Below, one piece after another: positions 517 through 30,660 of a DNA stretch of 64,000 bases; the stretch's first letter is position 1; the number at the start of each line of letters is the position of its first letter. Position numbers and translations under genes: made by a program. The stretch is taken from NCBI GenBank assembly GCA_964017185.1, contig OZ024870.1:64520812-64584811 (forward strand), in the 5' to 3' direction. Under the pieces are notes generated by a model. The model had not been told where the DNA came from, searched no databases, and saw only the letters and a program-made list of their open reading frames with translations. The stretch is from Rugalucina vietnamica. Lineage: Eukaryota; Mollusca; Bivalvia; Lucinida; Lucinidae.

Positions 517-796
517 TCACGCTAGTCTATGATTTTTGTACGGTGTGTCCCCAGTCTTCTGTTGATACGAAGCGGCTTGGTTATCTGAATAAGGCTCGCT
601 GTATGGGTTAGGTACATTAATCGCCTTATTCTTCTCGACAGGCTCCATATATCCATATTTGTCCACAACTTTCAGTTCCAGGTAGCCTCCGGGGGTGTTA
701 CCGGGGGTCGGGGGTAGCGGATCGTCTTCGTTACGGCTCAGCCTTTTGTTACCATTTTGTGGATTTATAATTGTTCCTGTTTTTGATGGAATGCTC
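517..796 (-). CDS. Gene 1 exon 18: cytoplasmic tail, part 2, and stop
   Basis: Residues 753-845, stop TGA at 519-517. Acceptor TTTGTTCATTTCAG|G. The tail holds a Pro-rich patch ([10 protein letters not shown]3-type) and closely spaced tyrosines in [18 protein letters not shown] and TPYKNH. Such spacing is seen in receptors with docking tails; the function here is inferred. A MITE-A copy begins 18 nt upstream of the acceptor. Confidence 0.88.

Positions 797-30660: not shown

Follow-up and report, generated by a model that had tools for sequence, protein, structure and literature searches.

The window analysed here, 64,000 nucleotides of the Rugalucina vietnamica genome (C2:64520812-64584811, in an assembly of 1.09 Gb and 47 contigs), contains on its minus strand a gene that runs from position 30660 to position 517 and comprises 19 exons, with GT-AG borders at every intron (Table 1). 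The spliced frame of 2442 coding bases encodes 813 residues and has a single stop, located at its end. From the N-terminus, the protein is arranged as signal peptide, Reprolysin (M12B) domain, ADAMTS cysteine-rich domain, five repeats, stalk, transmembrane helix and tail. In-phase joining of GT-AG exons had been proposed in the first-pass annotation and is retained, with the count of 17 exons plus a micro-exon revised to 18 plus one micro-exon of 11 bases, all joined in phase; the 845 residues given there become 813 in the chosen model, still as one open frame. Alternative in-frame splicing at exons 16 and 17 would lengthen the protein by at most 27 residues, and for exons 10, 16 and 17 splice choices of a few residues remain.

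Table 1. Exons of the minus-strand gene, other features of the window (positions counted from its first base) and joined zinc motifs of three paralogues elsewhere in the genome
Feature	Position	Strand	Description
Exon 1	30570..30660	-	start codon and signal peptide; donor CGG/GTAAGT; hydrophobic core KD 2.01
Exon 2	29634..29799	-	short N-terminal linker with TRHRR; metalloprotease domain begins (VEVFIVVDY)
Exon 3	29200..29266	-	metalloprotease domain; top splice score in gap; +6.2 bits to Reprolysin
Exon 4	28022..28096	-	metalloprotease domain
Exon 5	26701..26894	-	metalloprotease domain
Exon 6	25845..25855	-	11-base micro-exon, keeps phase; top splice score in gap; +2.4 bits
Exon 7	25323..25428	-	zinc motif, first half: HQIGR
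Intron 7	20767..25322	-	divides zinc motif; contains opposite-strand retroelement-like ORF
Exon 8	20599..20766	-	zinc motif, second half: SLGLTLD; Met-turn SIMG; stray HEMLH (residues 279-283)
Exon 9	19104..19230	-	ADAMTS cysteine-rich domain; PF17771
Exon 10	18542..18655	-	ADAMTS cysteine-rich domain (CRVLWC); PF17771; start 18637 equally possible
Exon 11	17557..17620	-	cysteine-rich domain end (RCIMGLCV); extends the PF17771 match to its last position (69 of 69)
Exon 12	15083..15232	-	CxYGD/CCxxC repeat 1
Exon 13	5742..5879	-	CxYGD/CCxxC repeat 2
Exon 14	4783..4902	-	CxYGD/CCxxC repeat 3
Exon 15	4230..4349	-	CxYGD/CCxxC repeat 4
Exon 16	3065..3247	-	CxYGD/CCxxC repeat 5, then Thr/Pro-rich stalk; alternative donor 3005
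Exon 17	2250..2377	-	predicted transmembrane helix, then RRRR stop-transfer; alternative acceptor 2398
Exon 18	1710..1849	-	cytoplasmic tail, part 1; codon score
Exon 19	517..796	-	cytoplasmic tail, part 2, and stop codon; codon score
Retroelement-like ORF	20965..22887	+	640 residues, open throughout, inside zinc-motif intron
Retroelement-like ORF	45055..46086	+	shorter near copy of the ORF at 20965-22887
SECIS_1 (Rfam)	22862..22929	+	38.1 bits; gathering 35
SECIS_1 (Rfam)	50895..50962	-	39 bits; gathering 35
Neighbouring gene	40607..48657	-	sulfotransferase-like exons
Cys-rich ORF	152..406	-	signal-peptide-like start, then Cys-rich stretch, just below gene end
Paralogue	C14:40.44 Mb		HELGHNIGARHD
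Paralogue	C9:38.13 Mb		HEIGHNFGMLHD
Paralogue	C9:32.70 Mb		HEVGHNFGMFHD

The model was assembled from stop-free stretches together with the acceptor and donor choices, and their phases, around each candidate exon, and the gaps between candidate exons were filled by scoring in-phase AG..GT exons. Splice score within the gap thus selected exons 3 and 6, and exon 11 was chosen by eye from the scored candidates, for family likeness. Exon 6, without which exons 5 and 7 would not join in phase, is the weakest exon of the model. Codon score marks exon 19 as coding (equalled by 0 of 400 open intron stretches) and likewise exon 18 (12 of 400), exons 2 and 8-16; it does not separate exons 1, 3, 4, 5, 6, 7 and 17 from the null, exon 17 being equalled by 33% of it. 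The ectodomain is joined to exons 17-19 by phase, splice sites, hydrophobicity and codon score rather than by homology.

Several other elements share the window. Each of the two SECIS_1 matches overlaps the 3' end of an ORF that by eye resembles a Penelope-like reverse transcriptase, the first of these ORFs having no Pfam match at E≤0.01. Selenocysteine-coding Penelope-like elements exist, and our literature search on retroelements with selenocysteine returned none. Among three ORFs scanned from the neighbouring gene, one gave sub-threshold Pfam matches to sulfotransferase. The Cys-rich ORF below the gene end, with no Pfam match at E≤0.01, may be the opening exon of a further gene for a small secreted protein.

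Run through Pfam, the joined protein gave two domains above cut-off, both in its N-terminal part. The spliced pieces match Reprolysin (PF01421) at 4.1e-11, with 43.7 bits against a cut-off of 20.8, which identifies the M12B fold, and ADAMTS_CR_2 (PF17771) at 1.4e-14, with 54.7 bits against 27.3, over positions 1-69 of 69. A draft lacking exons 3, 6 and 11 had already scored 3.7e-8 and 4.5e-10, respectively, and the Reprolysin score falls to 37.5 bits when exon 3 is left out and to 41.3 bits when exon 6 is. By sequence the closest solved structures are ADAMTS-5 (5.2e-13), then ADAMTS-13, -1 and -4, and in the ADAMTS-1/4/5 head, too, the Reprolysin fold precedes an ADAMTS cysteine-rich domain. 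The Met-turn SIMG is kept in exon 8 and, as the first-pass annotation had stated, so are the cysteine-rich signatures. Its term 'ADAMTS-like' holds for the cysteine-rich domain and not for the thrombospondin repeat, of which none was found by Pfam at E≤1 (draft, both halves) nor as WxxWxxC in the six frames of the window. The domains that follow the protease in ADAMs (disintegrin, ADAM cysteine-rich and EGF) were absent from the Pfam matches, at E≤1 for the draft halves and at E≤10 for residues 1-395. Pfam recognised no prodomain in the model, where a divergent prodomain exon could escape notice; about 50 residues with TRHRR lie between signal peptide and protease fold. Searched against a set of 5.8 billion proteins, the 813-residue model returned 3064 candidates, none at E≤0.001, and residues 300-620 returned 166, none at E≤1; since that set may contain few animal proteins, the result is no evidence of rarity. 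A scan of viral contigs gave no relative of the protein.

The zinc motif of this otherwise recognisable head is lost, as first annotated. Metzincins carry HExxHxxGxx(H/D), in which three residues bind zinc and the Glu serves as base, according to the part of the source available (PMC4349717). The window gene has HQIGRSLGLTLD, joined as H-Q-I-G-R-S-L-G-L-T-L-D from the end of exon 7 (CAT CAG ATT GGT AGA AG) and the start of exon 8 (C TTA GGT CTT ACT CTA GAC), so that the catalytic Glu is Gln, the second zinc ligand His is Arg, the third is Leu, and the first His alone remains. At least six base differences (Gln 1, Arg 3, Leu 2) separate the motif from any coding of HExxHxxGxxH, which excludes a single-base error. 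Neither does alternative splicing restore it: because the Gln sits within exon 7, none of the 11 in-frame exon 7/8 splice pairs tried yields an intact HExxH. The pair adopted agrees with three paralogues, in which an intron occupies this position in this phase. A second, active exon 7 within intron 7 was not seen among the minus-strand HExxH matches, which are HEAAH (three, in repeats), HETLH (14179) and HEMLH in exon 8. From these residues the head is predicted to be chemically inactive.

Related loci in the same genome put the loss into perspective. Profile matches to PF17771 occur at at least five places and to PF01421 at at least 15, giving at least 16 distinct loci besides the window; the counts are lower bounds, the window gene itself having given no profile match in that genome search, and the 16 loci represent M12B in general and not ADAMTS alone. 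The motif is readable at 13 of the 16 and intact in 12 of these 13; the motif exon was not seen at C4:8.61, C4:8.40 and C7:33.68 Mb. The intact motifs found belong to paralogues, not orthologues. Over exons 7-8 the window protein is 29% identical to each of the three intact paralogues with the shared motif intron (Table 1). The paralogue at C14:40.44 Mb has the same head with intact motif, one CIFGD...CCGTC repeat, several hundred Ser/Thr-rich residues and then a hydrophobic C-terminus, possibly a GPI signal, as though it were anchored differently, and membrane tethering may thus extend beyond the window gene. Pieces resembling exon 7 of this paralogue recur just upstream of it. The motif is also damaged at one other, distinct M12B locus, C1:31.446 Mb (HMIGHNLGIKHD; Glu to Met, three His kept). 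Five of the M12B matches each lie in one open frame (560-824 residues) with an intact motif and may be copies without introns.

The window gene is present three times. The 813-residue query gave 55 genome matches, made up of 18 exons in triplicate (the micro-exon being too short to find) and one place at C2:66.99 Mb, which matches stalk and helix only, looks by eye like a receptor-type tyrosine phosphatase and was rejected as a relative. The copies lie on one strand across C2:64.521-64.737 Mb, the first in the window and the others about 97.0 and 185.4 kb from it (spacing about 97, then 88 kb). Copy 2 shows 4 mismatches in 19911 aligned bases and copy 3 shows 4 in 16753, together with short length changes outside exons; within the 2442 exon bases there is no mismatch in the 2264 compared for copy 2 or in the 2114 compared for copy 3, a comparison that takes in the dead motif of exons 7 and 8. 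Either the gene was triplicated in tandem very recently or the assembly duplicated it, and the copies, being near-identical, give no independent test of selection. Among the best candidates scored, the zinc-motif exon and the tail had no further genome place at E≤1, and neither the remainder of the window nor the 20 kb below it showed a tandem relative.

Following the head are five C-x-[YF]-G-D...C...CC-x-x-C repeats, each encoded by one phase 1-1 exon. They have no Pfam match, PLAC included, at E up to 10 (HMMER filters on), and no good relative in the PDB, where the best match is mucin-2 at E 0.074; a structure prediction for the CxYGD repeat, made on 39 residues with 5 sequences, reached a mean pLDDT of 53.5 and was not usable. 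Their cysteine pattern presumably resembles that of PLAC/ShK modules. Ahead of the helix the protein has 46 Cys, signal peptide counted, and its N-glycosylation motifs number 16. The transmembrane helix claimed at first pass was found as a single predicted one (residues 633-657; best 19-residue Kyte-Doolittle mean 3.06) with RRRR directly after it. Pfam gave sub-threshold matches only in the C-terminal half, the best being TM_ErbB1 at 18.6 bits against 27.1. The tail that follows spans 156 residues with 11 Tyr and contains two YxN, one YxxM, three YxxP and two PxxP motifs, which we take to be adaptor sites, as well as YxxPhi motifs suited to endocytosis; short motifs of this kind can occur by chance. 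Described earlier as long and tyrosine-rich, the tail does have the length and the tyrosine motifs. Its Tyr content (11/156) exceeds an assumed 3% (P=0.008) and not significantly that of the protein's own ectodomain (30/632; P=0.12), so that 'tyrosine-rich' needs care.

Taken with its membrane anchor, the gene departs from ADAMTS hallmarks and is not an ADAMTS in the strict sense; it is better described as a membrane-anchored pseudoprotease on that branch. ADAMTS are secreted and have no transmembrane helix, whereas one is predicted here, together with a cytoplasmic tail and a lost active site, and prodomain and thrombospondin repeat were not recognised. Absence of a prodomain would fit a dead head, in which no activity needs holding back. 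MIG-17 of C. elegans, classed as ADAMTS and drawn without the repeat (PMC4856095, in part), and the related Drosophila protein Sona have a form without listed thrombospondin motifs. The small Cys-rich C-terminal module here is comparable to the MIG-17 PLAC domain, as far as excerpts of two papers describe it (PMC4856095; PMC4989167). The ADAMTS-L proteins are also non-enzymatic relatives of ADAMTS, but they are without the metalloprotease domain that the window gene keeps (PMC4885070, in part). The same review, in its available portion, describes ADAMTS as all secreted and active and counts a functional motif in 12 of 20 human ADAMs (PMC4885070), and among the titles and abstract beginnings covered by our literature search no inactive or membrane-anchored ADAMTS is named.

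Based on this architecture, the protein looks like an enzyme turned cell-surface receptor. It would be a type I membrane protein that exposes a dead M12B/ADAMTS head, the five small Cys-rich repeats and the stalk outside the cell. The head would bind an extracellular ligand without cutting it, the ligand being a matrix or cell-surface protein and perhaps a former substrate, and the tail, when tyrosine-phosphorylated, would recruit SH2-type adaptors. The nearest functional analogy is ADAM22, a transmembrane ADAM without catalytic activity that binds LGI1 through its metalloprotease-like domain (PMC5906670, in part); ADAM23 and ADAM11 are related to it. Judged by sequence only, the window gene has in common with ADAM22 the dead metalloprotease head, the type I membrane anchor and the cytoplasmic tail; unlike ADAM22, with its disintegrin, cysteine-rich and EGF-like domains, it has ADAMTS_CR_2 and five CxYGD/CCxxC repeats. 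A protease fold reused as a ligand-binding or adhesion receptor, as the first-pass annotation had put it, is thus consistent with the lost active site, the anchor and the tyrosine motifs of the tail, and is made less certain by the ordinary Tyr share of the tail and by the stray HEMLH. We give about even credence to the gene encoding a pseudoprotease receptor that works like ADAM22 on the ADAMTS branch.

Other explanations account for parts of the evidence. The dead head could act as a membrane-bound decoy and lower proteolysis by active ADAMTS-type paralogues, with which it would compete for substrate or inhibitor, the tail serving only in sorting or recycling. Paralogues with intact motif and shared motif intron are present in the same genome, and the YxxPhi motifs, along with a Tyr share that is ordinary for this protein, fit such a role; the 29% identity to the three intact paralogues over exons 7-8, however, makes shared substrates doubtful, and we consider the decoy unlikely, if worth keeping in mind. 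Less probable again is a fertilin-type role in gamete or cell adhesion, similar to that of ADAM2 or ADAM3, in which the dead head would be a structural adhesion module. Recent tandem copies are usual for gamete adhesion genes, and those found here, if real, would suit one, but the sequence has no gamete-specific feature. The mammalian Adam1a, 2, 3 and 6 are plasma-membrane pseudoproteases that sperm need for migration and adhesion, which is known from gene knock-out as reported in the portion of the source at hand (PMC9114714).

A secreted dead enzyme would result if the transcript stopped after exon 16 and exons 17-19 were foreign to the gene. Retention of the intron after exon 16 does read in frame past 3005 to a stop shortly downstream, which makes a secreted form possible, and secretion is how ADAMTS are described (PMC4885070, in part). 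Against it, donors 3065 and 3005 match acceptors 2377 and 2398 in phase, and exons 18 and 19 are coding by codon score; the presence of exons 17-19 in all three copies says little, because whole segments were copied. We regard this reading as distinctly improbable. The case for a decaying pseudogene or an assembly error, given the lost active site and three near-identical copies that may stem from assembly, is poorer still. In a neutral simulation, loss of the three residues takes a median of 0.78 substitutions per site (5% quantile 0.33), and even the lower value would bring some 31 stops and, under an assumed indel rate, some 57 frameshifts over this length. Observed in the 2442 coding bases are 0 stops, 0 frameshifts and 0 lost splice sites, which favours selection on the frame, and a motif at least six bases away from intact is not the product of one error. 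The intact 19-exon frame makes the decayed allele that the first-pass annotation had named as the alternative unlikely, and leaves very little probability for decay or misassembly in general; it argues for selection, not for any special function. The idea of a still active enzyme with its metal site moved to HEMLH, in frame within exon 8, is hardly credible, since this motif lies downstream of the Met-turn with no xxGxxH behind it and the aligned paralogue peptides have no HExxH there; we take it as a chance occurrence, a new metal site being conceivable, though outside the metzincin arrangement.

Lastly, the pseudoprotease receptor on the ADAMTS branch has importance in how the fold may have been reused. 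We propose tentatively, and with rather less than even confidence, that the gene encodes a signalling receptor of a new class, in which a transmembrane pseudoprotease from the ADAMTS branch has a ligand-binding dead head and an SH2-docking tail, and that it evolved separately from the ADAM pseudoprotease receptors and was freshly triplicated. If true, the change from protease to receptor would seem to have occurred more than once, with a dead, anchored member on the ADAMTS branch too, and the two instances would provide a natural comparison of what such a change needs in terms of zinc-site loss, prodomain loss and the gain of an anchor and tail.
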